Below are positions 1,615 to 44,908 of a stretch of 64,000 nt of DNA, piece after piece; positions within the stretch are counted from its first letter, which is position 1, and each line of letters begins with the position of its first letter. The notes below the pieces were generated by a model. That model did not search any database, was not told where the DNA came from, and was given only the letters and a program-made list of their open reading frames with translations. Made by a program: the position numbers and the translations under genes. The DNA is from Zygnema cylindricum (Eukaryota > Streptophyta > Zygnematophyceae > Zygnematales > Zygnemataceae): assembly GCA_037447655.1 (NCBI GenBank), contig JBBHKE010001207.1, positions 29,942 to 93,941 of the forward strand, read 5' to 3'.

Positions 1615-1637
1615 CTCCCGTAAATCTTTAGACTCAG

Positions 1638-3370: not shown

Positions 3371-3375
3371 GTTCT

Positions 3376-4372: not shown

Positions 4373-4395
4373 CTCCCCTAAATCTTTAGACTCAC

Positions 4396-5955: not shown

Positions 5956-5999
5956 AGGCTCCCTTGATGCTGTAGAAAAATTAAAGTGAGAACCGGTTT

Positions 6000-9031: not shown

Positions 9032-9036
9032 GTTCT

Positions 9037-13240: not shown

Positions 13241-13249
13241 ACCCTCGTC

Positions 13250-15747: not shown

Positions 15748-16024
15748 TAAAACTAGCTGTAAAGACTCCTTTTCTGGTGCTAGTTTCAAATCCTTTATCA
15801 TCTAATACAGACGTAGAGATAAGATTCTTGTTTAACTCCGGAATAAACAATACTTCGGAGAACGTAACTATTGAGGTTTTTCCCTCCACTACGACTTTCA
15901 GATCTACCGATCCTACATAAGTAGTGGTCACTACCCTCCCATCCCCATATTCAATCTCTACTGTAGGGATCTTTCTCAGCTTAGTAAACAGATGCTTATC
16001 TTTGCACATGTGCATAGATGCACA
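15748..16024 (-). pseudogene. Copia II protease fragment
   Basis: Continues gag after WIVD. The catalytic D-S/T-G motif is destroyed: the codons read D, stop, C, A. Downstream residues HMCKDKHLF, VEIEYGDGRVV and LFIPELNKNLISTSVL are typical of copia proteases. Cut at 15748 by copy A sequence. Confidence 0.8.
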
Positions 16025-17194: not shown

Positions 17195-17433
17195 AGGTAC
17201 TCAGAGTAGGCAGCTTGCTAGAAGCCTCAAGGATAACCACAGTTCTTTAAGCTTTGTCTGAATATTGCTGATACCCTGACAGAATACAGACTGACCAAAC
17301 TGCACCCCTTGGAAGGGTTGACTCCCCTAAGTCTGCCACAAAAAGAATCCTTGAATTTGCTCCCCTGAGAAGTTTTTTTCCTGCTCCTATTAAAATCATT
17401 TAAATAACCTAGGAAATACCTTTAATTTCAACA
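17175..17433 (-). repeat. 5' LTR of copia II
   Basis: A 259-bp LTR with TG and CA ends. The last ~190 bp (CTCAGGGGAGCAAATTC to CTATGGAGGTCTCAGAGTT) are shared with the ends of the longer solo LTRs at 19822-21376 and 61457-62504, which otherwise differ. Confidence 0.8.
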
Positions 17434-18193
17434 CAGCCGTCGGTCGGAAGCTATCCATGGCCTCATCTGCGACTAGAGGCGGAAAAAACCAATCGGGTTC
17501 TTCCTCTCGAATTATGACATCACGCTCGGCCGGAATTTGAGGTCCTTGTACTGCCACGAGAGCTCTATCACGATTCGGGGATGGTGGAAAAGCGACAACC
17601 TCGTCCTTGTCTCCATATTCTTCCTCCATGGGTCTCTCCGAGCTCTCCGAAGATTGCCGGTCTGAGGTTGAGGGATCGTCGTCGTATTTTTTGACCGGAA
17701 TGTCTGACGATTCGGTTTCTTCTGGTTCTTCCTCCTCTTACGTAGGCTCTTCCCCTTCCTGAATAGGCTCGTCCGACGCAGTTCTTGAGGGTTTATATTC
17801 CTCGTCTACCTCTTTACCCTCTTCTACTTCGCGGACACCTTCTTCGTCCGCTCTAATCCCTTCATTTGGTAAATCCCCCACCGGCACACTTCCCCTTACT
17901 ACCCTCTCCGTACTCGTCCCTTCCTTCCCCACCTCCTCAGTTTCCTCCAACTTATCTATGTCAAAACCCGATTCTTCCCCATCCCTCAAAATCAACTCCA
18001 TTCCAACCCTTTCCCTACCGCCCTCTTCCGTTTCCACCTTATTTCCCAACACTCCTTTGGTTGCACCCCTTTGCCTCTCAAAGTTCTCCCCTCCAAGTAT
18101 ATCACCCCCCATCGCGGTTGCCGTTGGTAGTGGACGAAGTCGCCTCGGAATGGCAGAGCGCATTCTTTTGAATGGTTGTTGGCCGCCCTCCAT
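17434..18193 (-). pseudogene. Mobile ORF family, copy B, main ORF (C-terminally cut)
   Basis: Start ATG 18193 (MEGGQQPFKRMRSAIPRR), acidic stretch (REVEEGKEVDEEYKPSRT), a frameshift near 17740, then EEEYGDKDEVVAFPPSPNRDRALVAVQGPQI and EEEPDWFFPP. It stops being homologous to copy A at 17434 where a copia LTR begins, so the WPDYWR block, the TPEL helix and the coiled coil are not present here. The N-terminal KR-rich block, acidic middle and PPSPNRDRALVAVQGPQI segment are strongly conserved with copy A. Role unknown. Confidence 0.6.
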
Positions 18194-19821: not shown

Positions 19822-21376
19822 TGTAGAAATTAATGGTCTTTTAAAGTATTTTCTAGGTTTGAATAGAAATATAGAAAAAAGTCGAGGCAGTCTACCTCTA
19901 ACTTCTCTCTCCAACTCTCAAACTTGTCGCAGTCTTTGAGAAATTGGAGAGGAAGTTAGAGCCATGGCTACTTAGGCTGTCATGAGGTTTACGGGATATA
20001 AATATTAGTTTATTTATAATTAGGGGTTTATTTACTACAATTATATGTGACATCTCCAAGATTTGATCTTGGAACCTGCCGGCCGGTAAATAGCCGGTAG
20101 CCGGTAGCTTTAACCGTTAAGTCTAAACATAGTGTTACGTACTATAGGGTTTGATAATTAATTAAACATTAATACGTAAGACAGTTCATTTAACTGGAAT
20201 AGTTTTACGGGAGACATAGATCTAGTAATGTAAAAGTACGGATTACTGTATGGATAAGAAACGAATACCGCGCATTTATTTCTTTAGCGAAACGAATATC
20301 GCGCATGTATTTATTACGGCTACGATTAAATGTGAATTTAATCGGACGGCCGGAATTAAACGCCGAGATCGCGGAAGAGGATTTCGGCGGTTTTTGGTCA
20401 TCGCCACATCGGATGACACTTGGCGAGATGACATTGGATCGCGGCATCTCCGAGGATTAAAGAAGCGAATCCGAATATACCAAGTGTCGACATTTAGGCC
20501 ATGTCGTACAATGTTCGTACAGAAAGTACACCTGCAGCTGTACTTTTGTTTACGGAAGTGTAATCTGATTGGCTCCGTACATTAGTAGATAGAGTCTGTG
20601 AGAGAGATAGGACTTAGAAAAATTAGGAGAGATGACTCTCTCTCCCAGAGAGCTTCTCTACAAAAGGTCAACTTTGACCCTCCATAACTTAGTGTAATAG
20701 GGTTACAGGATTCGGGTACTTAGTGGCTAGGGCTAGGCTGCTATGGTTGCGATTCTGAGCAGCGCAGCTGCGATTTTAGACCAGCGCAGCGTAGCAGCAT
20801 AGCAACTTAGCGGCGTAACAATTTAGTAGCGCCGCAACATAGCAGCCCAGCATAACAATGCCGCAGAATGTAGAATGAACGGTATAGTTCTAGAAGAACG
20901 TTTGGATAGATCTAGTTTGACCGAGAGGTTCCACGTGTATAGTTGTACCGTACTAGTTTGACTAGCAGCTAGTTAATTTAAATTGTCAGGTAGGCTTGTG
21001 AATAGAACACTTAAAGTAGACCTACGAAGCGAGCGCAACCTTGTACTCTCTTCCAAGTAATAAAACGCAACCTTGTCAGCTAGAGATGTGTGCTCTTACT
21101 GTTGCTACGGGAAGTTCCTAGGCGATTTCCGTAGTGCATTGTGGTGTGCTGTGTGCACCATTGACCCTTTTTCACTTAATGCTCAGGGGAGCAAATTCAG
21201 AGATTCTTTTTGCAATCGACTCAGGGGAGTCTTGCCTTCACATGATTGAAGTTGGTTAGTGTTTTTGTCTGCCAGGGTGGCAGTTGTTCTTGCTGAAACA
21301 CAAAGGGTTCAAGGTTATCCTATAGGCTTCTTAGAAGATGTCCACTCTGAGGACTTATGGAGGTCTCAGAGTTTCA
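19822..21376 (+). repeat. Copia LTR (solo) with a nested gypsy solo LTR
   Basis: Begins TGTAGAAATTAATGG and ends CAGAGTTTCA. Without its insert it is about 1070 bp and collinear with the LTR at 61457-62504. No internal element sequence follows on the right, so it is a solo LTR or a stranded LTR. Flanking pentamers (GTGTT left, AACTC right) do not match, so a simple solo-LTR history is not demonstrated. The final 50 bp carry an ATG and MEVSEF codons of the gag start. Confidence 0.75.
20693..21174 (+). repeat. Gypsy solo LTR inserted in the copia LTR
   Basis: 482 bp, TGTAATAGGG to CCTTTTTCA, flanked by CTTAG (20688-20692) and CTTAA (21175-21179), a 5-bp duplication with one mismatch. It matches the chromovirus LTRs at 21422 and 28203, including the GTAGC-rich internal stretch. 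Confidence 0.82.
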
Positions 21377-21421
21377 AACTCATATTCTAACTTTGCATTT
21401 TGTGGTGGAACTGAGCACACA

Positions 21422-21820
21422 TGTAACAGGGTTACAGAGTTGGGTACTTAGTGGCTAGCAACTAGGTTGCTATAGTTGCGGTGTCAGAGCAGCGCAGCTG
21501 CGATTCCAGACCAGCGCAACATAGCAGCGTAGCAACTTAGCAGCGTAGCAACTAAGTAGCGTAGCAGCATAGTAGCGTAGTATAGGAGCGCAACATAGCA
21601 ACGCAGCGTAGCAGTGTAGCAACGCCGCAGAATGTAGATTGAATCGAATAGTTCTATAAAGATGTTTTGAGATTGAGCTAGGAAGACCTTGAAGGTCCAC
21701 GTGTGCACCTGTATTGTACAATAGTGACTAGCAACTAGTGAGTTTAAATAGTCGGGCACACTTAGTTAAGGGACAGACTCTTCGAGTAGACCTTCATCGC
21801 GAGCGCTGGATGTTGTAATC
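21422..21820 (+). repeat. 5' LTR of chromovirus, truncated
   Basis: TGTAACAGGGTTACAGAG start. Homologous to 28203-28697 and 20693-21174 until TTGTAATC at 21820, after which homology stops at TGTTGAAATG, possibly the border of another inserted LTR. Contains a degenerate GTAGCA/ACTTAGCA tandem stretch at about 21515-21620. Confidence 0.72.
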
Positions 21821-22204
21821 TGTTGAAATGTATGTATTTTCTAAGTCTCTATTGGAAAAATAAATAGAGTTGTGGAACAAAACGTAAACATAGAATACCT
21901 TCCGTTATAATTTCGTTCATTATACAATACAAATCTAACTGAATGAACATATTGAAATTGTACGGTTACATAGCGTTATAACGTAACCGCGTATTACCAC
22001 CCGATGCATGGAGTCGACTATACGACGCGACAATGTACGTTTTGCCTCTGTTGTCCTCACACTTTTTTTACTATTATCAATTCACCCCATGCAAAACAAA
22101 CGCTTATTAGAATCATGAATGAACTTAAAGTGAAAGTACATAAACCTGTACATTTCAACGGTTTTTGCTCATACTTATTTTAGTGTATAATTATGAATGC
22201 CGCA

Positions 22205-22473
22205 ATGATTGTATATCCGCATACCCAAAATATAATTATGGATTTTTACGTTGGAAGGACGCGACGTCGTACGGATTGTCAAAATTTGTATCTCTACCTA
22301 TTTTAACGTATATGTTATGACGGCGGATCATGTATACCCAAAACAGCATTACGAAAAAATTATAATTAAATATTTTTTTGAAAATGGAATTGATACACAA
22401 ATTAGAATCCATGACATAATTCTTTATTCACACTAATAATTTCTATACGATAATAACGATTCACGGTGTAGTT
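22205..22473 (-). repeat. CAGTACACCG-type TIR element, left copy
   Basis: Reading the minus strand from 22473: TACACCGTGAATCGTTATTA, then about 250 bp closely matching the right copy at 22854-23115. The outer terminus is weathered (CTG lost). Likely a non-autonomous Tc1/mariner- or pogo-like DNA element by TIR type. Confidence 0.6.
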
Positions 22474-22853
22474 GCAACAGGTGACTCTCAAACAGTTCAG
22501 AATCGACGTCATCGCTCTCGTATGGTGTCATCCTAACATGCGTACTTTTGAGCCTTCGAACATTTCAGTTCAAAGTTCAAACGTTTCGAAAACTCTTTGT
22601 TCGTGCGATGTTTTGAGTTCGAACAAAGGCTCGCAAGCAAGCGGGGGGAGTATTCGTATGGGATTCTGCCACGTCGTCACGACAATAATGAGAACCTAAA
22701 GAGCGCGCACATTCCAAGGAAACCCTTAAATCATAGTACAAATGTGCAAAAACAATTACATTGCTATATGCGGTGTCTCCGTACTGGACCCATATGATAC
22801 TTAATAAAGTGGTAAAATACCCATGGGCCATGCGCGTCAACTCATGATGTACA

Positions 22854-23115
22854 GTACACCGTGAATCGTTATTAGACTATAGAAATTATTTGTATCAATA
22901 ATAAATTAGTGTCATTGATTCTAATTTGTGTATCAATATCATTATGAAAAAAATGTTTAATTGTAATTTCTCTATAACGCTGATTTAGGTATAGAGAATC
23001 TGTCGTCATTACTATACGTTAAAATAGGTAAAAGTACAAGATTTGACAATCCGTACCACGTCACGTCCTTTAAGTGTAATTTATCGATAATTCTAATTTG
23101 GGTTTGCGAACGCGT
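22854..23115 (+). repeat. CAGTACACCG-type TIR element, right copy
   Basis: A TA dinucleotide at 22854-22855 is followed by CAGTACACCGTGAATCG, a terminus of the CAGT type expected for Tc1/mariner and pogo families. It is an inverted near-copy of 22205-22473. The far end of this element was not found before the assembly gap. Confidence 0.6.
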
Positions 23116-23439
23116 TTGTCGCAAACTCGACTCCACGTTTATTCTAAGCGCAGTTCTGTATGCAACCGACATAAGTTAATTACAAATTCCGTACAATTTT
23201 CGGTAATCAAGTACAGTTTTGTACCAGCAAACACATTCCGTACACCACACTATTCATGAAATAAGTACGGTAATTCCATTGACGCTAATTCACAAGAACC
23301 GTAATTAACGTCACGGATAAAATAGAATCAGTCACTGTATTTCGGGTATCAATGTCAAAATTTTGGGGCGCCGATATAGAGTACATAAGTCTAATAACGG
23401 GTTTTAAAACTGTAACTATGGGCTTTATGTCACTGACTA

Positions 23440-23449
23440 NNNNNNNNNN
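23440..23449. other. Assembly gap (10 N)
   Basis: Ten consecutive N bases. Real length unknown; sequence on either side may not be contiguous. Confidence 0.99.
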
Positions 23450-23699
23450 CAGTGTAAACGAGGAGAAACGCATGTTGGATAAAAGGGTTTCCTGAACATC
23501 CTGGCAAGCATTCACGAAGTACACTAGGAGGTTGCAAGCCGATATGTGTTTCTAAAGCAGATCTTTCTGCTAATGTTTGCGTAGGTCTATACCGGCTTTC
23601 TACCTCAAGTAGTCTACGTATTTTCAACGACCGCGTAACCAATTGGGCTTGCCGTAATGGGCTTTGACCTTTACCGGTATGGCTCAAGATTTGCGGGAG

Positions 23700-24970
23700 A
23701 AAAGGTATAGGAGGAGACGTTAAGATCCGAGCGCTAAACAAGTTAACGGTCAAGAATGCGTACCCTTTACCGAGAATACACGAATTGCTAGACCGACTTC
23801 GAGGTGCTAAATATTTCTCAAAGATAGATCTGCATGCGGTTATCACCGAATTAGAATTGCAGAGGAGGATATGGAAAAGAGGGCGTTTAGAACTCGGTAT
23901 GGCCATTTCCAGTTTCGGGTAATGCCGTTCGGGTTAACCAATGCGCCAGCAACTTTTATGCATCTGATGAACTCCATCTTTCGGCCATATCTGGATGCGT
24001 TTGTAATCGTCTTTCTAGACGAAATCTTTGTGTATAGCCGAACGTTGGAGGATCACATGAAGCACTTACGAACGGTCCTACAAGTCCTTTGGGAAAATAG
24101 GTTGTACGCAAAGAGGAGCAAATGTGACTTCTTGAAGGAGAAAATTGATTTTTGGGCCATGTGGTGAGCCGGGACGGAATCGTAGTGGATCCGAACAAAA
24201 CAAGGGCAGTGAAGGAGTGGTCGGAGCCGATGAACATTACAGAATTAGGGAGCTTTATGGGATTATGCTCCTACTATCGACGTTTTGTTGAAGGTTTCGC
24301 CAAAATCGCTGCACCACTCACGGAATTATTTAAGAATGACGCGCCCTACGAGTGGAAATCGGCGCAAGGGGCAGCTTTTAACACGCTAAAGGAACGGTTG
24401 GTTACCGCCCTTGTGTTAGCTGTTCCCGACCCGGACTTACCTTGGACGATAATTACAAACGCCAGCAATACAGCTATTAGAGCGATCCTTATAAAGGATC
24501 AAAGAAAAGGCTTACGACAGTCGAAAACTAAAGGCAACGGAGCATGGGGCCACCCATGAAAAGGAGAAAATTGCGATAATTAATGCGCTGGAGGTTTGGA
24601 AATGTTACATTCAAGGGAAGCGGATCATAGTTATCACGGATCAGCACGCCCTGCAGTACCTGCAAACACAGCCGAAATTGTCCAAGAAAACAAGTGCGCT
24701 CATAGCCGAAATTGTCCAAGAAACAAGTGCGCTGGATGACGTTTCTCTAGACCTTCGGGTCGGAACTTGTCATTGAATATAAGCCGGGCAAGACGAACCT
24801 GGCAGATGCGCTGTTGAGAAGACTCGCAGTCGCTGCTACAGTGGCGGAGCACCGATCGCAAACATCGCAGGATGTCGACGTTAGCTATGTGAAAGAGAAC
24901 ACCGCAGCGGCGGCCACAGCTCAAGATTCGAAACTCAGCGCAGTCACCAGTATGGTGCAAGTGGACGAGC
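23700..24970 (+). pseudogene. Chromovirus reverse transcriptase and RNase H
   Basis: RT blocks [25 protein letters not shown], then after a one-base frameshift near 23837 [30 protein letters not shown] broken into motifs NAPATF and FLDEIFVYS. The catalytic YVDD is replaced by FLDE. A second frameshift near 24150 leads to [29 protein letters not shown] and the RNase H start ([15 protein letters not shown], where the family has TDAS). Later RNase H and tether residues (ITDQHALQYL, GKTNLADALLRR) follow in another frame. A 31-bp duplication at 24670-24734 adds damage. Inactive. Confidence 0.9.
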
Positions 24971-25129
24971 AGTGGCTAAGTTGAATCAAGGCAGCATAAG
25001 ACGACGACGAGACATTAAAAGAACTGATAAAACGGAAGGTATTGGTTCGGAGCGCCAAATGGTATTTGGGGATACCGACCTAGTCAAACAACGAGACTTT
25101 ACGTATCGACAAACCAGGAGCTATGTCAT

Positions 25130-26535
25130 TCGATACTAAAATTAAGTTATGATGAACCACTCAGTGGACACTTCGGCGGGGATAAAACAACCGCACATGT
25201 CGTTGAGGCGTATAATTGGCCAAACATGACTTGGGACATTGCGGAGTATGTCCGGACGTTTGACTCGTGTAACAAAAACAAAGCGGAATCGGGTCACAAG
25301 GGTCTGTTACAACCCCTTCACATACCATTTGTTCCTTGGGAAGCGATTTCGATGGACTTCATCGTTGCTCTCTCGTTAACCAGGGAAGGTTATGACTCTA
25401 TTTTCGTCGTCGTGGATTACCTGACAAAAATGGCTCATTTCTTACCCACGACAACCACCGCCATAGCACGAGATGTAGTAGACTTATTCTTTCGAGAGAT
25501 ATTCCGCTATCACGGACTCCCAAAGAGGATCGTCAGCAACCGGGATCGGAAATTTGTGAGTCACTTTTGGAGAGGTCTTTTTGCGCTATGTGGAACGCAG
25601 TTGGCGATGTCCACAACTTACCACCCTCAAACGGAGGGTCAAACTGAAAGGGTGAATCGGACTTTGGAGGAGGCATTACGGACTTATGTTTCGGTGCACC
25701 AAACGGATTGGGTAACCATCTAACAACTATTCAGGTGGCGTACAACGGTGCGGCGCACTCGTCCACGATTGCTACGCCATTCTCCCTAAACGGACGACAG
25801 CCCACTTTTCCGCAAAACTTATTGGTCACGGACTGCCCTATGCCGGCAGCTCTGAAGTTTGCCACAACGTTGCAAGGGAACCTGGAAAAGGTGGCGAAGG
25901 CGCTCCAGCTGGCAAAGAATCATCAAAAGTCGCAAGCCGACTCTCACCCGAAGGAAACCATTTTTCGCGTGGGTGATAGGGTTCGCCTTAATATGGCAAA
26001 CCTCTCCTTACCATTCGCCCTCTTTAAGAAATTGGCACCGAAATTCACGCGCCCATTCACAATTCTGTCACGTGTGGGAGAGGTGGTTTATAAGATGGAT
26101 ATTCCGACGGAGTGGCATATCCACAATGTCTTCCTTGTTTCCCTACTTAAACCATTCACAAACCGTGATTCGATGTTTCTTAATCGACGCCAAAATACTC
26201 CTTTGCCCCCCGTTCACGGTACCTCGGACGAGTATGAGGTGGAGGATATCTTTCAGTCACGCCGCTCTCGGAATTCCAACTCCAGACAGTATCTAGTGTG
26301 TTGGAAGGGCTACGGCGCTGAGGACGACTCTTGGGTGAACGAGGGGGATCTGCATTCTCCTGAGTTGTTGCGCCGGTTTCAGAAGAGTGAGGACACACAA
26401 CTTCACCGGAGGGGCAATCGCAGCGGCTGCGGTAAAGGAACGAATCGCAGTGTCACAACGTTTGCAATTATATTGGGGACGCCGCGAAGAAACGCAACGA
26501 CGATGTTACCTCACTTCGGCGATACAGCGGCGTAG
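25130..26535 (+). pseudogene. Chromovirus integrase with C-terminal chromodomain
   Basis: Integrase core 25226-25723: SMDFIV (first Asp), SNRDRKFVSHFW (second), TEGQTERVNRTLEE (Glu), all typical of Ty3/gypsy. A frameshift near 25715 leads into the second ORF (25708-26535) with the GPF/Y-like region (IFRVGDRVRLNMANL, KLAPKFTRPFTILSRVGEVVYKMDIP) and a chromodomain at about residues 173-222 (EYEVEDIF, YLVCWKGYGAEDDSWV). The chromodomain directs integration to marked chromatin in chromoviruses. The upstream zinc-binding part near 25150-25225 is broken by stops. Confidence 0.92.
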
Positions 26536-26619
26536 TCACCGCAGCGCAGCATGGATACCGTACCATGAGAGGAACGCAGCGCCACCGCTGGGCTGATAGG
26601 AAAGCGCAACGGCGCAATT

Positions 26620-28158
26620 TTGTTTCACCACATTGGTGACAACGAACCCTCGGTTTCGCCGCTGCAGCGTAGTTTTATAAATGTTGGACGCTGCGATACC
26701 CTCGCACACTGCGACGCGTCAAAGTGTCCAAATGTAAAACCCTCAACCCTCTGTAACAAAGCCGCCATCCGCCCTCGCGCCCAGCTTAGTTTAGGCGACT
26801 TAGAGAGTGCTTCACTCTGCACAGCCTGCTTACCCTCCCTTCTCGCACTACCAGAATTATCCGACGCCACAACATTTATGGCATCGTCGTCTTCTCCACC
26901 GCCAAAAAGACAAAGACTGGTACGAGTAGGGCAAGGTGATGTACCACGCCCGGATAGATTGTTAGAGGCGGCAGAGGCCATGGTAGAGGCAGGCAAGAGG
27001 AGGGAGGTGGTGGCACTACCTGAACCAGAGGAGACAGCTAGTAGCGGGGTAGGGCCAGCGGAGACCTGCGGAGGAGAGGGGTCAGAAAATTCACAAGACC
27101 CCGAGTACAACCCACTCAAGGAAGGGGATCAGGAGGATGAGGAAGACCATGTGATTTCAGATGCGGAGGAGCCGGAACGGGAACTGACACCTCCGCCAAT
27201 TGAGGAGCGTGCCTCTGACCTGAAGGTGATGAGGGACCCTAATAAGGAGAGCACCGCGGACGAGTAACCCTCCGAAAGCTCCGAGAAGAAAGCGGAAGCA
27301 CAATATCCTAGCGGAGACGAGGTATTTCTCCACGGAAGGGAAAGAGGGGACACGGACAGGGAAAGTGAGCGGGAAGAAGAAACCCCCGATTATCTCTTTC
27401 CATCTTCTATGGACACTGGGCATCCGAACCGTACTTTCAGCTTCGCCAAGCGTCTGTACTGGGACCCTTCGGAGTGGCCTGCAACTTGGCGCACAAGAAA
27501 ATCTGGGGACCCTATCTATATCCCCGCAGACGTGCCGTCACACCCAGCCTAGAATTTCATGAGAACGAAGGACCTGGGGAACAACCATAAGGGTTAAGTA
27601 CAACTAAACCCTCATGCCCTGCCATTTGTGGAAGTAGTCGAAGAGCACTATCGGTACAGGGTGCATATTCTCGGGTTACTTCGTCGTTACCACCCGTGGG
27701 ATGTTCGTCTGCATGACATCATCTTTTGGGCGGAGGTTACACCCGAGCTACGAGCACTCAAGATGGCGCGGAAGAACGCTATGCAGCGGGCCCGAGCCGC
27801 CAGGAAACACATCTTCTTCAAATTAAGGAAAGTACCGCGGTGGGAACCGGCAGAGGGGATAGCATATAGGGCACAGCAAGCCGAGGAACCCGAAGCTCCC
27901 CAAGCCTCGGCACCAGAAGAATCTGCACCGCCAACCATTCCGCAGCAACCTGCGGCACCAACACAGGCACCGGAGGAAGGGGAGGACCGGGTTCGGGAGC
28001 GAATCACTCGGAGACGTTTGGCAGCGGTGGATCACTATATTACGCTGCTGGAGACTCGTTGTGAGCAGCTCCAACACCAACTTGGCACCCTACGACAGGA
28101 AATCGAGGAGCACCTTGAAGAGACATACGGCATGCTCTGGAAATTACAGTTTCCCTGA
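26620..28158 (+). pseudogene. Extra 3' ORF of chromovirus, same family as copies A and B
   Basis: Likely start ATG 26878 (MASSSSPPPKRQRLVRVG). Open to TAA 27265, continuing in the same frame to TAG near 27552, then resuming at 27628-28158. Block order matches copies A/B: KR-rich N-terminus, acidic region (EEDHVISDAEEPERE), SESSEKKAEAQYPSGDE, EEETPDYLFPSS, WPATWRTRKSGDP, IPADVPSHP, RYHPWDVRLHDIIFWAEVTPEL, a Pro/Ala-rich linker and a C-terminal heptad region (RLAAVDHYITLLETRCEQLQHQ). It lies between pol and the 3' LTR, on the element's strand. No known domain; a structural or nucleic-acid-binding accessory protein is one guess. Confidence 0.65.
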
Positions 28159-28202
28159 GGAAACAAAGTTCAGCGGGACGCTAAATCCTTAGTGGGAGGC
28201 AC

Positions 28203-28697
28203 TGTAACAAGGTTACAAGGTTGGGAACTTAGTGGCTAGAAACTCGGCTGCTATAGTTGCGATTGCAGAGCAGCGCAGGTGCGATTCCATATTAGCGCAA
28301 CATAGCAGCATAGCAACTTGGTAGAATAACGTAGCGCACCATTGCAACGCAGCGTAGCTGTATAACAACGCCGCAGAATGTAGATTTTACCGTATAGTTC
28401 TAGAAAAATATTGTGGATAGATCTCGGTTGACCGCGAAGGTCCACATGTACATTTGTACACTATTGGGTTGACTAGCGGTTAGTTAGTTTATATAGTGAG
28501 ACAGACGTAGTACGAGACCGACTCTTTGAGTAGACCCTCGCAGCGTGTGTTGAATCTTGTAATCCTCTCTTGAGTAATAAAGCGCCATCTTGTCAATCAC
28601 AGCTGTGTGCACCTGTTGTTGCTACGGGAGGATCCTTGGAGCTTTTCGTTGTGCATTGTGGTGTATTGTGGTGCCTATAATTCCTGCCTCTTTTACA
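28203..28697 (+). repeat. 3' LTR of chromovirus
   Basis: 495 bp, TGTAACAAGG to CTCTTTTACA, directly after the purine tract AGTGGGAGGCAC. Matches 20693-21174 and 21422-21820. Confidence 0.85.
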
Positions 28698-28739
28698 CTT
28701 TGCTGAGATCTCGGTTCAAGCTTTTGTCACTAAATGTAG

Positions 28740-29181
28740 TGACTATGAATGCCTTGTGGGATAGGACGTTATATTTCGTGTAGGGGGTGGAGTTGACATG
28801 CACGATCAGATATTTTGTTATAGGCCCACTAACTTCTTGGAATGCAAAATCTGCATTCCGCTAATTTCTGCTAGGAAGTCCATGCCTATTATGTCAAATT
28901 CGGCCACATCCATACCTGCATTTTCAGGGAATTTGGTGGGGGCCGAAATATTTCATTCATTGCCAGAAAAAGAAATTCTTCCCGATAGTTCTTACTTACC
29001 ATAAATTTTCACTGACCCAGGTTTTCTTATAGATACGAGGGAATTTGACCGTATCTAAATCCAAACCTTGTCAATTCCACTTTCTCCGGCCTCTCTTACA
29101 ATCCCAGTCCGTATAGACTCTTTTGGGTTTCTTCCCATTAATTGGAATCTGGTCTAATTGGAACCTCATCCAAATGGATTG
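28740..29181 (+). pseudogene. Unidentified coding upstream of the methyltransferase
   Basis: Same frame as the methyltransferase with three stops; open part 28798-29004 reads MHDQIFCYRPTNFLECKI. Position suggests a gag-protease remnant or the N-terminal extension of the methyltransferase polyprotein. Codons just before motif I (INWNLV, PHPNGL) run into it without a frameshift. Confidence 0.45.
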
Positions 29182-30160
29182 GTGATTTTGGACCTTTTTG
29201 CTGGAATAGGCACTTCCCTCTTTGCATGTTTGCGGAATGGATTATTAAACTAATTTTATTATTCGGTTGAGATTGATCCGTTAGCACGGAAAGCACAATT
29301 ACATCATTGTAATCTGTTGCATTCCCAATACCCGCATTTGTTACCTAAATCTGCATACGAGCATATGCATACTGCCCTCCCACAAGACATTCGGATTGTG
29401 GGCAACCATCACTTACTGGAGATTGGTCCAATCGATCTAGTTTTTGGCGGATGGGAGTTCCAAGGAATGTCTCGGGCCGGGAAAGGTCTTGGATTAGCCG
29501 ATCCCCGCACCAAATTATTTTTTGAGTTGGTTCGCATCCTGCATTTTCTACAAACTTTAGATCATCCTATGGGGTATATCTTGGAAAATGTCGCAGCCTA
29601 TAATGATCCAAGACCTACAGTCTTGGCTGATTATCAACGGATTGAACAATTAATTGGTCCGCCTCTTATTATTGACGCGGCTCGCCATGGTTCACTAGCA
29701 CACTAGGTTCGCTCCAAATGGACAAACCTGATCAATATTGGTAGACTTTGTGAGGCCAACTTGTTAGTTCGTCCTCCTCCTACATACATTCAGGCTGCCA
29801 TTCTTCCTTTCCATAAGGTGCAGCCTTGCATTCAAAAGGACTGTCCCCCTAATTTCAGTGTCAATGTCCTAGGTTAACCTCTCAAGGTGCTTCCTACCTT
29901 AGTTTCTTACCCACATTCACATGCATTCTCTAATGACGGTCCGGGCATGCTTTGAAACATTCATATCGGTGAGCTTGAAGAGCCTACCTCTACGGAACGA
30001 GAACACCTCTTGCATTTCATTCCTGGCACAGCGGCCGCTCATGGTCTTACTGAACGTCAAAGATGCACTTTATTAGGTCGTGTCATGGATTCTCAGTCTT
30101 TGTCTTTTGTTCTAGGTCTTGGGTTTGCTGCTGGTCCTCACTCTCAGGCACATCCGTCTC
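29182..30160 (+). pseudogene. Cytosine-5 DNA methyltransferase domain in a retrotransposon
   Basis: About 325 codons in one frame, interrupted only by stops at 29251, 29704, 29875 and 29953. C5-methyltransferase motifs in order: I (VILDLFAGIG, S-adenosylmethionine binding), II (YYSVEIDPLA), IV (GGWEFQGMSRAG), VI (YILENVA), VIII (AH-stop-VRSKWTNL) and a C-terminal region with ERQRCTLLGRVMDSQSLSFVLGLGF. In active enzymes motif IV has Pro-Cys-Gln; here the Cys position is Phe (TTC at 29458-29460), one base from TGC. Frame continues through the spacer towards RT, so the domain was part of the element's polyprotein, not a chance neighbour. Presumed original role: methylating element or host DNA. 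Inactive now. Confidence 0.88.
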
Positions 30161-30640
30161 AACCAGCTGGGGGGGGGAATGCATCACTAAAAAAATCTTT
30201 CCGTCCCACTCTCCAAGGGACCACATTTCAATTTTTCCTCTTTTTTTCTCCAATTCCACCAGTCTCGGAGATCTTTATCTACGATTTTCTCAATCCTAGC
30301 CAAATGTCTTGGTCTATTCCAGAATACACGGCTGTCCAGTTTACAAGTCCCATGTATATTCCATCCACTCCTCATTGGAGTGCTGCTTTTCCAACACGCA
30401 TTTTGAATCATTCAGTTAATTGCCTTAAATGGACACCTGTAGCTGTTGAGTTAGGTCAAACGCTTATTGCAGATGAGCAGTTGGCCATTGCACAACCTAT
30501 GGAAGCTATGACAACCGAAAATTCCGATGCTTCTAAATGGAAATTTGGCACCAATCTAACAAAGGCCGAACAAGAGTTACTGAATGATGTAGTTTTACGG
30601 AATATTGATGCTTTCTATGAACCATTTAGGTCGTCACACC
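30161..30640 (+). pseudogene. Linker between methyltransferase and RT
   Basis: Open in the methyltransferase frame to 30648. Pro/Ser-rich first, then WKFGTNLTKAEQELLNDVVLRNIDAF, the usual lead-in to a gypsy RT. The RT continues in another frame after about 30615. Confidence 0.6.
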
Positions 30641-31900
30641 GCTTATAAGATGTCGATAGATCTCGAAGATGATCGTCCGATATTTAAACCGAAACATTGT
30701 TTGTCAGAAACTGAATGGGAAATGGTAGACAAGCGATGTGGTGAACTAGAGGAAGCTGGCCTAATCTATCGGCCAGACACCACATTTGCAGCTCCCACTG
30801 TCATGCCTCGGAAAAAGGATTCCGATGGTAATTTTACTGAACATCATATGTGTGGTGACTATCGTGAACTAAATGTTAGAATGGTTCAAGATCGTCATCC
30901 CATGCCTCTTGCCGAAGAAATATTTGATCACGTCGGCGGAGCAAATTATTTTAGTATCCTTAACCTCTGTCAGGGATTCAATCAAATTGAGATAGAGGAA
31001 AATGACCGGCATAAAACTGCCTTTTGGGGTAGCGACGGCCAATGGGAATGGGTTGTAATGCCATTCAGACTGAAAAATGCTCCGTCAGTATTTCAAAAAG
31101 TCATGGACTCCGTTCTTGGAGGTTGTAAGTTTGCGAGATGTTACATCGATGACCTCATCATAACCTCCGCTACTATCGAAGAGCATGCTGCTCACATCGA
31201 ATGGGTATCGACTGAATTGAAAAAGGTCAGATTAAAATGTCATCCAGCAAAATGCACCTTTGGAGCTGAGGGAGTGCCTTACCTCGGCCATTTTATCTCG
31301 GCTGAGGGAATCACTCCTCTCGAAGCAAACATAGAGGCAATCAGTAAATTGCCTGCTCCCACGGACCTTACAAGTCTGCGAGCTTTTCTCGGACTTGCTT
31401 ATTATTATCGCAGTTTTGTATCTAATTTTAGCACCATCGCATCACCGTTAAACGACCTTCTTAAGAATGAAGTGGCGTTTATATGGGGTCCCAATCAGAT
31501 TTCCGCATTTCAAAAATTAAAAACCGCTTTATCGAGTGATCTAATTCTCGGTCCTCCCAATCACAAACTCCCTTTTTGTCTCCAAACAGATTTTGGGAAA
31601 CCCGGAATCGCTGCCATCTTGACACAAAGAGAGTTGAGCGGAGACGAATACGTGGTTGCTTACGCGAGTAGAAGAAATAACCGGGTTGAATCAAATTATA
31701 GTAGCTATGAAGGAGAGTGTCTAGCCGCGGTTTGGGGAGTCGTTCACTTCCGCCATTATTTGTACGGAAAACTTTTCACACTCCTAACTGACTATCATCT
31801 CTTACATTGGCTAATGACGAACAATAAGCTTTTTGGGAAGCTAGCGCGATAGGCTTTAATTTAACATGAATATGACGTTGAAATAATACACCGATTCGGT
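30641..31900 (+). pseudogene. Gypsy reverse transcriptase and RNase H
   Basis: Open from 30605 to 31852 and the best-preserved pol in the window. Residues: YKMSIDLEDDRPIF, MCGDYRELN, FSILNLCQGFNQIEIEE (first catalytic Asp position reads N in LNLCQG where LDLxxG is usual), MPFRLKNAPSVFQ, CYIDDLIITS with intact YIDD-type pair, YLGHFISAEGI, then the RNase H domain (LQTDFGKPGIAAIL, NYSSYEGECLAA, LLTDYHLLHWL). Reading stops at 31852 just after LLHWL; remaining codons to about 31900 (NEYDVEIIHRFG) are in another frame. Confidence 0.92.
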
Positions 31901-32921
31901 CTGCTTAGTCTAAACGCAGACGGAATTTCCCGAAATCCTTTGCCCCGAACAACAGATAAATGAGTTCATCAGGATTTCGATGACGATGATGTTCTCGTCA
32001 TGTCAATGGGTTCTTATCTTACTTACTGCCTGGCCTCTATTTCGAACCCCCGTCCCGCCATAGATCCTTGGCGTGATGGGGCTCTCATCCTTTTCCTATC
32101 CTCCCAAACCTTCAGGTCCGGCATTACCTATGACAAAAAAGACAGAGTGAAAAAGAGGGCCAAAAGTTATCTTTGGCTCGGGGGATCTTTAGTTCGGTTG
32201 TTGGCAGACGGAAGCCATAGCCACGTTCCACGGCCTACCAACGTCTTTCTCTCATTCAGCAAATTCACACTAGGCTTGGTCACTACGGTACCAAGCGTAC
32301 GTTAAGTCTAGTTCAGGCACGGTATTGGTGGTCAGGAATGCAAGCTGATGTCGTTGCTTTTCTGCACAAGTGTGCCACTTGTGACCGTCTTCGAACTTCT
32401 TTTTCTAACCGGCAGATTACGCTCCAACCTCTATTTATTAGGGGTTTGTTCTATCGATGGTCGGTGGATTTGGCCTGACCTTTTCCTTTATCACGTAGAG
32501 GGAAACAATACATCATGATTATGATCGAAAATTTCAGTAAGTGGGTAGAAGTCGTAGCCCTGTCTCATAAGACAGCTAAGTTAACCACCGCAGCTTTTAA
32601 GGAACTTGACCTTATGAGATACGGTGCCCCAGCCGAGGTCCTTACGGATGAAGGTACATAATTTCGGGGAGAATTTCAAGAGATGCTTGATGAGGCTCTC
32701 ATCGATCATCGTTGTACTAGTCGGGATCACCCCCAGGCCGATGGCCTGGCTAAACGGGCAGTCCAAACATTTAAGCGTGCCTTGCGTAAGCATTGCCTAG
32801 AGAAACACATTTCGGTTTGGGACAAGTCCCTCGGTTACATTACCATGGGATATCGCTTGTTTTTGCCACGGATGTCGCGAGCTTTCGGTAGTGTTGGCCA
32901 ACTTTTTTGCCGGCTAAAGAG
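31901..32921 (+). pseudogene. Gypsy integrase
   Basis: Frameshifted. Zinc-binding part recognisable around 32260-32400 (HTRLGHYGTKRT, KCATCDRLR), core with WSVDLA (first Asp, 32462-32479), VLTDEGT (second Asp, 32640-32660) and HPQADGLAKRAVQTFKRALRK (32730-32790), where the expected Glu is Lys. WDKSLGYITMGYR fits the helix after the core. The integrase ends at the G-tract at 32922. Confidence 0.82.
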
Positions 32922-32931
32922 CTGGGGGGGG

Positions 32932-33117
32932 AATAAACCGACCTAACCATAACCAGCTAAGTCGTTGACCTTTCATTTTCTTTCACCTTGCCTGTTGTTA
33001 TATTTATTCATTTTTCTCTTTCATGTCTTATTTCATTCGCAACATATTTTCATCATTTCGGTTTTAAGTGGAGCACAACTAATGATATTGCATGCATCTT
33101 CACGTTATTTGACACAT
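32932..33117 (+). repeat. 185-bp direct repeat, left copy
   Basis: AATAAACCGACCTAACCATA to TATTTGACACAT; matches 34535-34719 with scattered substitutions. It directly follows the G-tract of the gypsy element, so it may be the start of that element's 3' LTR or UTR. Confidence 0.75.
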
Positions 33118-34534
33118 ACAGGACAGCTGTCATGCCGCATCTCGTCGACCATTTTAATTATTTATATTTAGGTGTTAGGACAGGCAGCCGCCACACTAAT
33201 TTGTATTTGGGTGTTATTTGGGTTTTACAGGACCGTACATACCTACATTTCTCGTTCGCATCGACTGTTTATTTTTACATTGACGTACTCGTCGACCGTA
33301 CATATGTATTTTTGACTGTAAGACCTATATTTCGTGCAATTCCCGTGATGACGATTTGGACCGTACTCGCAGTCATACCGTACGACATATATTTTTCACG
33401 ATTTCCACCGACGGAAGATTCGATTATTCTGCGTCGACCGTATGACTTACGTTGACCAGAATTCCCGCGGCCACAAATCGGCCCGTTCCTGCGGTCCTGC
33501 CGTACCTGCTTTCATTTCCCCGATTATCTGCCGACGACCCATTTTGAATTCACGACGGTACAAATCTACTGTACCTGCATCTCTCGCAATTCTGGCTAAG
33601 GACAAATTTGAATCATTTCGAGCGAGGGAGCATCTCGACCGTCGACGCAAACTATATGATTTTCGTTATATCTCATCTGGACCGTTGATGTGAGTGACAG
33701 ACAAATCGGCTGTGAGTGCTGACGAAGTGACGTGATTGTACCATTTTAAGTCGTGAACCATTTGAAGGTTCACGCATTCACATGTTGATAGGAAGGGTTT
33801 TAATCCGTAGGTTATAGATTCAGTAACGTAGGGCATAGGATTTCAGCCTCCTATTGGCTGAATCCAAACTAGACGCAAATACATACATAGCACGCTGTAC
33901 TCTGATGGCCTGTTTTCACTAGGCGTAGAATTTGTTACTTAGATCATTTCTGATCATTTCTTGCACACAATTTTCAAGCCTTGGAATTATTTATTTTCAG
34001 GATTGAGGATTTTCTCCAGCCATCTTTTTACTTGTAAAATTTTCCGGACAGCTTAGAGGCGATTTTCTGCCTTTGCGTGAAGTGTCTAGTTTTCCATTAC
34101 ATTATCAATATCTTTTAAAGCCTTACATATTAATCTTTACGGCTTTGGCCAAGACCTACACGGTTTCCATTCACTTTTCTCGTCCTTTTAAGTGGATTTT
34201 GACCGCGTTCTCGCGACACAAACTTCTTTCCCCGGCTGTGGCTGAACTTTAATTAGTGTGGAAGTTGCATGTTGGGATTATTGATTTGTTGTTTTTATTT
34301 CTTGTGATTGTGTATTTATTTCTATTTGCTTATGCGCATCTTTTGAGTTTGGCTATCTCAAACATCATAAGTGTCAGGCATATTGTCATTTTCAGTTTGT
34401 TGTTTGTCTTTCTCGGTTGTTTATGCTTTGATTTGTTTTATTTAAGTATAAATTCAGATTATCCTTGATAAGATAACTCCTGCAAGGAATATAAATAGAC
34501 CGTGGGGCCTAGTGGTCATCCATCGGCTTAGTAG
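33118..34534 (+). other. Between direct repeats: no gene recognised
   Basis: Short open stretches only (33442-33693 includes AREHLDRRRKLYDFRY, which might be a remnant). Ends in a promoter-like motif. May be the body of a long LTR. Confidence 0.4.
34491..34499 (+). promoter_or_regulatory. TATA box
   Basis: TATAAATAG at 34491-34499 about 35 bp upstream of the second direct repeat. Compatible with an LTR promoter with the transcript starting near 34525. Confidence 0.45.
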
Positions 34535-34719
34535 AATAAACCGACCTAACCATAACCAGCTAAGTCGTTGACCTTTTATTTTCTTCCACTTTGCCTATTG
34601 TTATATTTATTCATTTTTCTCTTTCATGTCTTATTTCATTCACAACATCTTTTCATCCTTGCGGTTTAAGTGGAGCACAGCTGATGATATTGCATGCATC
34701 TTCACGTTATTTGACACAT
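34535..34719 (+). repeat. 185-bp direct repeat, right copy
   Basis: Copy of 32932-33117, 1.6 kb downstream; runs directly into the satellite array. Confidence 0.75.
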
Positions 34720-34727
34720 GCATATAA

Positions 34728-36335
34728 TCCGTCGAGCATACGACGAATGAACCAAGAAACACCATAATTGCGCAAACTTTGAAACCGTAACACCTATAAA
34801 ATTATTGGTGGCCACAACCCTATAAACTTATATAAAACCCTACGATAGGGTGAAAACCAAGTGTTTCGCCGATATATTGAGAAATGTAACGAGGCGTTTT
34901 TGTAGAAGTGCGTGTTTTGCCAACGCTTTGTAGTAACCCACCTATTCATCCATCAAACAAACGACAAATGAACTAAGACGCACCATAATTGCCCAAACTT
35001 TGAAAACGTAGAACCTTTAAGTTTATCGGCGGCCACAACCCTATAAACTTATATAAAAGACTAAGAGAGGGTGAAAACCAAGTTTTCCGCCGATATATTG
35101 AGACATGCAACAAGGTTTTTTTGTAGAAGTGTGTGTTTCGACCACGCTTTGTAATAACCCACTTATTCATCCATCGAGCATACGACCAATGAACTAAGAC
35201 GCAACATAATTGCATAAAATTTGAAAACGTAAAACCTTAAAAATTATCGGTAGCCACAACCCTATAAAATTATATAAAAGACTACGAGAGGGTGAAAACC
35301 AAGTTTTCCGTAGATATATTGAGACATGCAACGAGGTTTTTTTGAAGAAGTGTGTGTTTCGACCATGCTTTGTAATAACCCACCTATTCATCCGTCGAGC
35401 ATAGGACGAATGAACCAAGAAGCACCATTATTGCGCAAACTTTGAAAAAGTAGAACCTTTAAATTTATCGGTGGCCACAACCTTATAAACTTATATAAAA
35501 GACTACGAGAGGGTGAAAACAAAGTTTTCCATCGATATATTGGGACATGCAACGAGGTTTTTTTGAAGAGTGTGTGTTTCCACCATGCTTTGTAATAACC
35601 CACCTATTCATCCGTCGAGCATAGGACGAATGAACTAAGACGCACCAAAATTGCATAAACTTTGAAAACGTAGAACCTTTAAAATTATCGGTGGCCACAA
35701 CCCTATAAACTTATATAAAACCCTACGAGAGGGTGAAAACCAAGTTTTCCGCTGATATATTGAGACATACAACGAGGTTTTTTTGTAAAAGTGCGTGTTT
35801 CGACCAAGCTTTGTAATTACCCACCTATTCATCCGTCAAGCATACGACGAATGAACCAAGAAGCACCATAATTGTGCAAACTTTGAAACCATATAACCTT
35901 TAAAATTATCGGTGGCCACAACCGTATAAACTTATATAAAAGACTACAAAAGGGTGAAAACCAAGTTTTACGTTGAAATATTGAGACATGGAACGAGGTT
36001 GTTTTGTAGAAGTGTGTGTTTCGACCACGCATTGTAATAACCCACTTATTAATCCATCGAGCATACGACGAATGAACCAAGAAGCACCATAATTGTGCAA
36101 AATTTGAAAATGTAGAACCTTTAAAATTATCGGTGGCCACAACCTTATAAACTTATATAAAACCCTACGAGAGGGTGAAAACCAATGTTTTCCGCCGATA
36201 TATTAAGACATGCAACGAGGTTTTTTTTGTAGAAGTGTGTGTTTCGACCACGCTTTGTAATAACCCATCATTCATCCGTCGAGCATACAACGAATGAACT
36301 AAGACACAACATAATTACATAAACTTAGAAAAATA
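34728..36335 (+). repeat. Satellite array, unit about 221 bp, seven-plus copies
   Basis: Units start at a CATCCRTCGAGCATACGACG-like word near 34728, 34951, 35169, 35390, 35610, 35830, 36052 and 36276. Each contains AATTATCGGTGGCCACAACC, TATATAAAA, GAGGGTGAAAACCAAG and GTGTGTTTCGACCACGC. The last unit is partial. Short minus-strand ORFs recur once per unit and are a by-product of the repeat. Confidence 0.93.
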
Positions 36336-42900: not shown

Positions 42901-44908
42901 CCGGAGATGATGAAGGGGCTGGAGGAGAGTTAGCCGAAGCAGAAGAGTTTTTAAGCAAAGTGGAGGTGAGCTTGACAATAGCCTTCAGTTGACCGCCAGC
43001 GATGCAGCTTTCCTCTCAATGGTATTTTCTTGTTTTTTTCCTTTTCTTTTAGTGTCCTGACTCTCTTTTCGCCGCTGACCGTTGTGATGGGATCATGTGC
43101 TCCCTCGTGTTTCAAAGTGTGCAGACAGACAAGCTTGATACTGCTTTTGGGGTCTTCTCAGAAGCCTTCTCCCTCGTATTTGTTGCGGTGAGTGCCCTCA
43201 GCTCTACTACACCATCACCGCCCGTGGCTATTAGAGTTAGTGAATTATTAGCTTTAACACTTCATTAGAATCAACTGCACTAAATTATGTTTTGCAATGT
43301 GGCTCAATTGGGCCCACTCAAACATTGTTGTTAACACCAATTCATACATTTGGGTCGGAGAAACACCGACTCAAAATTAGAGTGATTAACTGTCATAGCG
43401 ATGGACAGTGTAGAGGCATCTGACAGGGATCTTTTCTTATCTCCGTGACAAGATTTCAAAGAGGCGAATTCTTTTTGTATAATAGGGAGCTCATGACTTG
43501 CGGGGCTTTTTGTTTGTAGGAATGGGGGGACCGTTCTATGCTTGCCACCATCGCACTCGGTGCAGCACAGGTAAGCTGCTTTAATTGACACTGGCAATAT
43601 CTGAAGAGATTTTAACGATTCATTTACAGTTGTCACTTTCTTGGCTCTGCCAGGGCTATATGGGAAGCAGGATGTGAAGGAGAAGGATTACGTGTTCCAG
43701 CATGCTTGCTTTATCTGTTTGTTTGTGCTTTGTTGTCACGGATTAACTGTTTGACTGTCAAATCCTCCTTTTGTCTCTGCAGTCTCCTGTGAGCCTAGCA
43801 TGTTGGTCAATTTGCATAGACTATTGTAATTTTCCCTTAAGCCTATAAATGACGTAGGGCAATGTCATATACTTTTGCAGTCAATTACCCACCTGTTTTT
43901 TTTTTATTCACGTGATAATTGTGGCACCAGTAAAGTATGGAATGGTTTCTGTATAAAATGGAGTTCTGGACAGTACCATTTTCATTATCTGCTTGCTCCT
44001 TGACAGTGCTACGCCTTCGCTGAAATTCACTGATAACAACTTATCAACAGCTTATCAATTTATCAACTTATTAACGACTAGCCAATTTGTCAACTTCTCA
44101 TCTGATACACTTATCAACCACTTATCTCTAAATTTGTTATCTTGTCAGCCTATCAACAACTTATTCATTTTTAAACCTATCACTTTATTAATTTCTGAAC
44201 TTCTGAGCTTCTCAAGTTCTCAACTTATCAATTTATCAACTTATCAATTTATCAACTTATCATCAACCTATGGACTTATCAATTTATCAACTTATCATCA
44301 ACTTATTCATTTTACCAACTTATTTACTTATGGGTAAGTTTATTTAACAGTGTTTTGTTCCACTGGGATGTCTTGCAGTCTCCTGTTGGAGTGGCTCTGG
44401 GAGCAAGTTTAGGCCACGTAGTCGCGACGGGGATCGCCGTGATGGGTGGGGCGCTGCTTGCAGAGCACATATCAGAGAGAGCGGTACGTATGGTTTTCTG
44501 TACCACAAAGGTAACATCAGAACATATACGTGGCAAAACTAGAGGGCGAGGGAGAAAGCATCCTTCTTAGTGGAGAGGGAGAGGGAGAAGCTTCCTTTAC
44601 AATCTTTCCATTCCTTGGGAAGGGTGAGAAGCAGTTTCATTTTTGTTTTGTTTCTCCACTATTGAAAGTGTGGACGAATCACCTAAGATTCTTTGGAATG
44701 GACGGGTTAAGGTGGCCGATGAGCCCACCTCATGGGAACATCGAAAAAATGCCCAATTTTTGTCCCATTTTTTTTGCAATAGAAAGACGACTTGGTTCTT
44801 TTTGGGCTGAAGAGGGTGAGTTAGTTTTCACTTTGGGTGCAGGTAGGGCTTCTTGGAGGTGTCTTGTTTCTCGTATTCGCCGTCGCGACACTCTGTGGCG
44901 TGTTCTGA
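39930..44908 (+). CDS. GDT1-like protein (UPF0016/TMEM165 family), probably plastid
   Basis: Cation transporter family (plant members move Mn2+ or Ca2+ across chloroplast and Golgi membranes). Exons supported: 39930-40104 (MAASLPATWLP, Ser/Arg-rich, transit-peptide-like; GTGAGT donor), about 40980-41211 (LLQVAMAAVGVAG...SLIFVSEIGDK), 41801-41848 (TFFIAALLAMRHSRVM), 42355-42451 (VLAGASTALALMSVISVVIGR), one ending at 42965 (ELAEAEEFLSKVE), 43125-43187, 43520-43570 (EWGDRSMLATIALGAAQ), 44379-44483 and 44843-44908 (VGLLGGVLFLVF...GVF, stop TGA). Both family signatures, ExGDK-T and ExGDR-S, are present, one in each half. I could not place the exon encoding the usual LPIGEYAA segment between 42451 and 42900, nor the exon joins between 40104 and 40980. 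Confidence 0.9.
40513..40934 (+). repeat. Local duplication in GDT1 intron
   Basis: 40513-40596 and 40840-40934 are diverged copies (CCTTGGACTSTTGCACATAA ... CAGTGTGAGCG). A second short pair, 40795-40825 and 40960-40995 (TTTGCATTTTCTGAT), flanks the acceptor of the second supported coding exon. Confidence 0.7.
41225..41555 (+). repeat. Intronic CCTTTTT-type pyrimidine tract
   Basis: Over 300 bp of almost pure C/T in units like TTTTTCC within the GDT1 intron. ORFs of 70-270 codons here are artefacts. Confidence 0.9.
44030..44335 (+). repeat. Intronic CTTATCAA tandem repeats
   Basis: Degenerate repeats of AACTTATCAATTTATC in the intron before the penultimate GDT1 exon. A stretch at 44215-44300 is nearly regular. 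Confidence 0.85.

Follow-up and report, generated by a model that had tools for sequence, protein, structure and literature searches.

DIRS and PAT retrotransposons are laid out with split direct repeats. The arrangement A-coding-B-A-B is also given, in the legend of Fig. 4c of de Mendoza et al. (2018), for KnitGypsy-Dnmt3 of Klebsormidium nitens (PMC5890265). The DNA methyltransferases (DNMTs) of the SymbioDIRS elements of dinoflagellates produced CG methylation in yeast (PMC5890265). Here we describe an element of this kind in a stretch of 64,000 nucleotides of Zygnema cylindricum (contig JBBHKE010001207.1, positions 29,942 to 93,941 of the forward strand), called the window; positions are those of the window unless a locus is named. 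The window element is an old, dead and truncated copy, with stops, a frameshift, a lost motif IV Cys and a truncation. We hold it to be probable, taking the explanation as a whole, that this dead gypsy copy descends from an element whose DNMT3-type polyprotein would have pre-marked its complementary DNA (cDNA), whose PHD finger would have steered integration, and whose integration would have proceeded through a circle.

A DNMT3-type methyltransferase in a gypsy polyprotein

The element is of Ty3/gypsy class and encodes Gag with a zinc knuckle, protease, a DNMT3-type methyltransferase, reverse transcriptase (RT), RNase H, a DDE integrase and a PHD finger. In what follows P denotes relative proteins, L loci read in the genome and C contigs or copies (L042 is C1344, L032 is C2165, L078 is C1807). 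Sibling L042 carries one open frame of 2395 residues with zf-CCHC, protease, DNA_methylase (2e-11), RVT_1, RNase H, H2C2 and rve domains, closing with a PHD finger (1.5e-9). The earlier note had read the methyltransferase stretch as a dead copy of a working polyprotein. The Ty3/gypsy order of protease, RT, RNase H and then DDE integrase is found in this frame and, by Pfam, in the window. It counts against the full order that the zf-CCHC (0.0086) and aspartyl protease (0.012) of L042 are below the Pfam cut-offs; tblastn with P0002 finds the protease at 3e-31. The Pro-type sibling L043 (the types are defined below by motif IV) has a frame of 1520 residues from the methyltransferase to a weak PHD finger (0.0044, below cut-off), with a protease match in the preceding frame; the PHD finger of L041 scores 5.6e-9. 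The dinoflagellate type with a tyrosine recombinase is unsupported, as both the 2395- and the 1520-residue frames have rve instead. The coding part of the window copy consists of the following features.

28697..34722, plus strand: remnant of the DNMT-carrying gypsy element, lacking the A repeat of its 5′ side as well as gag and the greater part of the protease; full-length siblings match at 86–93% over 28697–32860 (DNA search of its own genome), and the 3′ part is common to L041 up to 34722
28708..28827, plus strand: C-terminal remnant of the retropepsin (protease); tblastn of P0001 residues 21–60, E 6.8e-5; longer match in siblings, e.g. L042 2657–3103, E 3e-31
29182..30135, plus strand: DNMT3-like C5 cytosine methyltransferase domain with four internal stops; PF00145, DNMT3 matches in PDB, 48% identity to P0001
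29446..29466, plus strand: motif IV region, GGWEFQG in the sequence; GWECQG in siblings
29584..29592, plus strand: motif VI Glu-Asn-Val, intact in the sequence
30614..31849, plus strand: RT and RNase H; the reading frame shifts at about 30613; PF00078 7.6e-23, PF17919, PF17917
32221..32478, plus strand: integrase zinc-binding domain (H2C2); PF17921 2.6e-16
32479..32858, plus strand: integrase core with stops and a deletion that also took most of the PHD finger; rve 5.6e-6, 27 bits, below the curated cut-off of 32.6; about 0.6 kb lost versus L041

The motifs that we take, from recall, to be I, IV, VI and VIII stand together with a C-terminal block in a single frame starting at 29182, with stops at 29251, 29704, 29875 and 29953. 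This frame and its four stops had been recognized in the earlier note, and the profile check proposed there gave a match. Its start of the methyltransferase holds, but not its end at 30648: the domain stops at about 30135, the frame continues to about 30613, and the RT lies in another frame. Pfam DNA_methylase (PF00145) matches a 150-residue open piece at 1e-7 and, with X at the stops, the domain at E 8.2e-8 (32.5 bits, curated cut-off 22). The tblastn match of P0001 covers 28708–30027 (467 columns, 38% identity, E 3.6e-84). Together with the PF00145 match, this places the similarity far above chance, and since the P0001 match begins at 28708, the C-terminal end of the retropepsin stands before the methyltransferase. 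The alignments of P0003, P0005 and P0008 break at 30614–30615 of the window, whereas these proteins themselves cross the methyltransferase–RT join in one frame; the frame change in the window is therefore damage.

As judged by sequence comparison, the window methyltransferase is of the DNMT3 class. Comparison with PDB gave DNMT3A, 3B or 3C in 29 of 31 matches, the remaining two being M.HaeIII. In the PDB profile search DNMT3A/B/C scored 2e-19 to 4e-14, HhaI at best 3e-10, and DRM2-type chains at best 2e-9, the last aligning over positions 5–132 of 326 only. Profile positions 6–222 align to DNMT3 in one run and the C-terminal block weakly (4–6 bits); the motif order is unrearranged. The DRM, DNMT1 and bacterial classes are ruled out by this ranking, and DNMT1 is absent among the 57 rows of the profile search. 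In the AlphaFold model of P0001 confidence is high for the Rossmann core only (blocks in the 90s, mean 59), and Foldseek with this model gave, among the 50 matches listed, DNMT3-complex entries with TM-scores of 0.25–0.50. A quick tree, in which long branches meet and which has no DNMT1 or DRM row, was used only for the grouping of the window with P0001–P0003 (95); P0006 is next (82), and together they form the Glu group.

The family is large. A profile search of the genome holding the window (352.8 Mb, 2689 contigs) with PF00145 gave 123 scored matches among 782 candidates, all above the cut-off. Thirty of these loci were read, and 29 encode this methyltransferase, with RT in the flank (about 1.5 kb) at 24, protease at 20 and both at 16. 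Thus the linkage of the methyltransferase, N-terminal, to a gypsy RT, as claimed earlier, holds at 24 of the 29 loci, and neither contrary outcome named in the earlier note (no PF00145 match, or younger copies with the domain unlinked to gypsy RT) was found. The methyltransferase is in a single frame at 20 of the 29 loci. Motif IV, readable at 28, is Pro-Cys-Gln at 22 and Glu-Cys-Gln at six (L004, L005, L015, L016, L025, L029).

The sole non-family locus among the 30, L007, has a chromomethylase-like host exon (1501–1749). The exon matches 4fsx, which we take to be the maize chromomethylase ZMET2, and two similar sequences at 1e-28; the next rows, at 1e-12, are labelled DNMT1. Chromomethylases are plant-specific and appear earliest in charophytes (PMC6453930), so that this exon by itself points to a probable streptophyte host.

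A DNA search of the genome with the element gave 39 matches, several of them fragments of single copies. Besides the window itself they include C2165 (L032), a 97% duplicate together with its flank; the others are at 86–93%. Ten were read (L031–L040, of which L037 and L040 coincide with L025 and L029). Glu-Cys is kept in eight (L033–L040), and the Cys is lost in the window and its duplicate. Motif IV of the window thus reads Glu-Phe, against Glu-Cys in its subfamily and Pro-Cys in the sister subfamily. As the siblings have Glu-Cys-Gln, the Cys alone is a private loss of the window copy. The loss of this Cys to Phe had been noted earlier; the Pro-Cys-Gln expected there for younger copies is not what the siblings have.

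Relatives elsewhere came from protein searches (P0001–P0008) and from a profile search that gave 70 proteins; the latter did not relist P0001–P0006 and P0008 and hence is not exhaustive. P0002 combines an aspartyl protease with the methyltransferase, and P0008 a methyltransferase tail with RVT_1. A protease–methyltransferase cluster from JGI sources, several members with aspartyl protease, makes up 53 of the 70 (P0007, P0009–P0060); the remaining 17 resemble ordinary C5 methyltransferases. The motif IV pattern was caught in 29 of the 53 and is Pro-Cys-Gln in all 29; P0013 and P0015 likewise have Pro-Cys-Gln. The motif reads GWPCQG in P0004 and TWECQA in P0006, whereas GWECQG is common to P0001 and P0002. 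Scans of a viral collection gave pattern matches, or in one case none, with no relative confirmed, and prokaryote genomes scanned with P0002 likewise gave no confirmed relative.

Selection and the role of the methyltransferase

The methyltransferase domain is under purifying selection and was kept, whatever its role. Ratios of nonsynonymous to synonymous substitution (Ka/Ks) were computed pairwise (NG86) among copies picked for an unbroken methyltransferase frame; the pairs are non-independent. The eight Glu-type copies make 28 possible pairs, nine with Ks > 0.02, eight of these with Ks < 1.5; the median Ka/Ks is 0.17 (0.11–0.25), and the window copy takes part in three of the eight. The 17 Pro-type copies (136 possible pairs, 60 usable) give a median of 0.24 (0.08–0.75), and the Pro-type RT gives 0.17 (31 of 39 pairs). 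CpG depletion, a possible footprint of methylation, varies: the observed/expected ratio is 0.63 in the methyltransferase, 0.81 in the element, 1.01 in the RT, 0.48 in a copia-type element (1641–7290) and 1.14 in the other gypsy element of the window.

What the methyltransferase would do can be proposed as follows. The protease would free it from the polyprotein, and the freed enzyme would methylate cytosines of the element cDNA or its surroundings de novo. A new copy would then enter the genome pre-marked and hence be tolerated, and the PHD finger would read a histone tail, steering integration. It is plausible from the sequence that the element once methylated DNA, as the earlier note supposed, a point that the motif IV Glu leaves undecided. 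The Pro of motif IV is described as invariant and in contact with the cytosine (PMC2965745). With Glu in its place, the role suggested for METHYLTRANSFERASE is one of two: the Glu subfamily may still be catalytically active, its pocket being altered, or it may be a non-catalytic partner. Several points weigh against the proposal. A Cys without the preceding Pro is predicted to be inactive (PMC2965745), and the window subfamily is without the Pro; the KnitGypsy DNMT had no activity in yeast, a result that its authors judge inconclusive (PMC5890265); and the Glu-type RT has a higher Ka/Ks than the domain, 0.38 (four pairs, three involving the window copy).

Two alternatives concern the methyltransferase. 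In the window alone, the methyltransferase and the RT are parted by stops and a frame change, as they would be if a chance match or host-derived methyltransferase fragment lay unlinked beside an unrelated gypsy element; the siblings hold protease, methyltransferase and RT in that order, and the single frame of L042 refutes this reading, to which we give practically no credence. The other alternative is that the Glu-Cys-Gln methyltransferase was kept as a non-catalytic partner that would bind DNA or a host methyltransferase and recruit or block it, as is thought for Dnmt3L and DRM3. The Glu that replaces the invariant Pro is common to P0001, P0002, P0006 and the window subfamily, and the Pro-type subfamily in the same genome could provide the activity. 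A dead partner need not retain the Cys, however, yet the catalytic Cys is kept in all 28 readable motifs among the 30 profile loci and in all eight siblings L033–L040 (two being in both sets), and the methyltransferase Ka/Ks is low. We consider a non-catalytic partner rather unlikely.

Terminal repeats and a proposed circle model

Three copies give the layout of the repeats. In C1344 the A1 repeat (85514–86444, 931 bp) recurs at 100% identity as A2, which lies downstream of the frame between B1 and B2 (243 bp, 99.6%). The order A-coding-B-A-B is also found in C1374 (Pro type; 97.8% and 99.5%) and in C2526, which is older. Thus these three copies have A at the 5′ end and B-A-B at the 3′ end, not full direct long terminal repeats (LTRs) at both termini. 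The element starts with TGTC and ends with GACA, and the inner B1/A2 junction, GACA-GC-TGTC, is a perfect palindrome, present exactly in L031, L032, L034, L036, L037, L038, L042 and the Pro-type L047 (C1374) and C1974; the junctions of L039 and L040/L041 have a different spacer. The window copy retains the 3′ part of this layout.

28203..28696, plus strand: LTR of another gypsy-type element adjoining the cut 5′ side; repeats with 20693–21153 and 21422–21820, and the sibling similarity begins at 28697
32916..32930, plus strand: polypurine tract immediately 5′ of B1; siblings have the same purine run in this place
32931..33125, plus strand: repeat B1; 32931–33120 is 93.7% identical to 34534–34722
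33122..33131, plus strand: palindrome GACAGCTGTC at the B1/A2 junction; its 2-bp spacer, GC, occupies 33126–33127; from the sequence and sibling comparison
33128..34533, plus strand: repeat A2, which resembles the A2 of L041; its 5′ partner A1 is absent from the window, where self-comparison shows a single copy
34534..34722, plus strand: repeat B2, cut off a few bases ahead of its terminal GACA; a 221-bp satellite starts at the cut

Short target duplications and TG...CA ends, as in Ty3/gypsy elements, are found in some of the copies. Both ends were found in nine of the 23 copies tried. Four of the nine have exact 4-bp duplications (TTGG, AAGG, GACA and CCCT; chance expectation 9/256), two partial ones, and three none or no true end. 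At the A2/B2 seam seven copies, the window included, have 0–2 variable nucleotides with both sides nearly constant; C1374 has one extra base. In C1807 (L078), GACA-GT stands before the 5′ A repeat, as though a tandem unit or circle junction were retained at the 5′ side.

These features can be accommodated by integration of a circle. If U3 begins where the polypurine tract stops and U5 runs up to the primer site, reverse transcription would produce B-GC-A as the LTR. The cDNA would close into a 2-LTR-like circle, coding-B-GC-A-B-GC-A, and the integrase would cut the palindrome CA/GC/TG in one of the two B-A units. A single cut would yield A-coding-B-GC-A-B with TG...CA ends, the cut GC lost, the A/B seam imprecise and a 4-bp target duplicated, whereas A-coding-B would be all that remains of a linear precursor after cuts at both palindromes. 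We infer integration from the 2-LTR-like circle because the predicted product matches the observed layout, ends, lost GC and imprecise seam. Such palindromes are cut by the integrases of human immunodeficiency virus type 1 (HIV-1) and of foamy virus (PMC1905944, PMC1180852). For retroviruses, a circle route was put forward in 1984, and linear DNA later took its place (PMC11054761).

We put at about even chances the reading, drawn from sequence structure, that this is a DDE-integrase element for which a DNA circle is the natural precursor of integration. The stored palindrome B1-GC-A2, formed of the element's own joined ends, would be the attachment site, in which one staggered cut would give both processed ends. 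The DIRS-like layout would have arisen by convergence, in a lineage equipped as well with a Glu-type methyltransferase and a PHD finger choosing chromatin. Against it must be set that the use of a circle is read from the structure of integrated copies alone and that the retroviral data favour linear DNA (PMC11054761). The copies add further points of this sort. The palindrome was not found in L033 and L035 by two patterns. For 14 of the 23 copies one or both ends were not found; C2573 and C1811 match three of four target bases, C2526 and C1374 have no duplication, the apparent 5′ end of C1807 is itself a B/A junction, and the GACA duplication of C262 consists of the element's own end letters. 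C1548 differs at the A2/B2 seam, and its B is preceded by no polypurine tract or A end; the presumed primer site after A does not have the usual TGG start (L044, L046, L048).

In a conventional LTR element, linear DNA would integrate and A-B-A-B would be a scar left by template switching, recombination or insertion in tandem. Large genomes often contain tandem or recombinant copies, and some copies here are without target duplications. Retroviruses, moreover, integrate linear DNA (PMC11054761). A scar is nonetheless difficult to reconcile with a layout and palindrome shared by two copies, one Glu-type and one Pro-type, with RTs about 48% or less alike to that of the window, or with young copies in which the repeats are near 100% identical and the target duplications enclose the whole A...B unit; the same layout is also stated for Klebsormidium (PMC5890265). 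We therefore judge the conventional element to be unlikely and retain circle integration.

The rest of the window holds other repeats and exons of two genes. The 221-bp satellite occupies 34723–36332 in about seven copies, starting at the cut of the element's B2. A further gypsy-type element lies at 20693–28696; its RT matches P0008 at 23701–24343, and its integrase and chromodomain-like end were seen by eye only. The solo LTR-like copy at 20693–21153 sits in a repeat recurring at 61456–62504. The minus strand has nested copia-type elements over 565–17800 (Pfam places gag at 16028–17200; the rest was seen by eye). An exon of a GDT1-type cation antiporter is at 44199–44567, plus strand (PF01169, 6e-8), and exons of a probable CBS-domain protein are at 50556–51952, minus strand (6e-5 and 0.0016, both below cut-off). 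An Rfam scan of the window gave nothing at the gathering threshold.

Relation to known systems

Transposons are normally victims of DNA methylation, and here a large family bears a writer and a probable chromatin reader. It includes at least one very young copy, C1344, with A repeats identical over 931 bp. The two subfamilies differing in the catalytic motif offer a natural comparison in one genome, and the stored end-to-end palindrome makes natural use of a circular precursor by a DDE integrase directly testable.

This kind of element, DIRS-like repeats included, has been known since 2018 as KnitGypsy-Dnmt3. Both that element and ours have an unrearranged DNMT3-type domain in the gypsy Pol frame, A-coding-B-A-B repeats and purifying selection (PMC5890265), in agreement with the charophyte type proposed in the earlier note. 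The PHD finger, the Glu-Cys-Gln subfamily, the palindromic junction and the 4-bp duplications set ours apart, KnitGypsy being compared by its description. The main text of PMC5890265 makes no mention of the words PHD, proline or circular. A literature search, at the level of titles and abstract starts, brought up no paper on a PHD finger in a gypsy-type retrotransposon, and at title and abstract level the papers listed pointed to no DDE element laid out in this way other than that of the KnitGypsy legend. Apparently new, then, are the PHD finger, the Glu motif IV subfamily under purifying selection, and the stored palindromic B/A junction of TG...CA ends with 4-bp duplications.

SymbioDIRS-Dnmt3 of dinoflagellates shares the DNMT3 in the Pol frame and the A-coding-B-A-B repeats (PMC5890265) but has a tyrosine recombinase, where our element has a DDE integrase and target duplications. 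DIRS/PAT elements share the split direct repeats; they have a tyrosine recombinase and no target duplication, whereas the 2395- and 1520-residue frames here have rve and no tyrosine recombinase, and some copies have 4-bp duplications. In the 2-LTR circle junction of retroviruses (HIV-1, foamy virus), 4 bp separate the conserved CA from the TG. In our element the spacer is 2 bp and the junction is stored within the integrated copy. Accounts of the retroviral circle predict 4-base extensions (PMC11054761), and its joined-end palindrome can be cut by a DDE integrase, as is proposed for ours. If the circle model is true, the route taken by this element would be the one that was proposed and then rejected for retroviruses.

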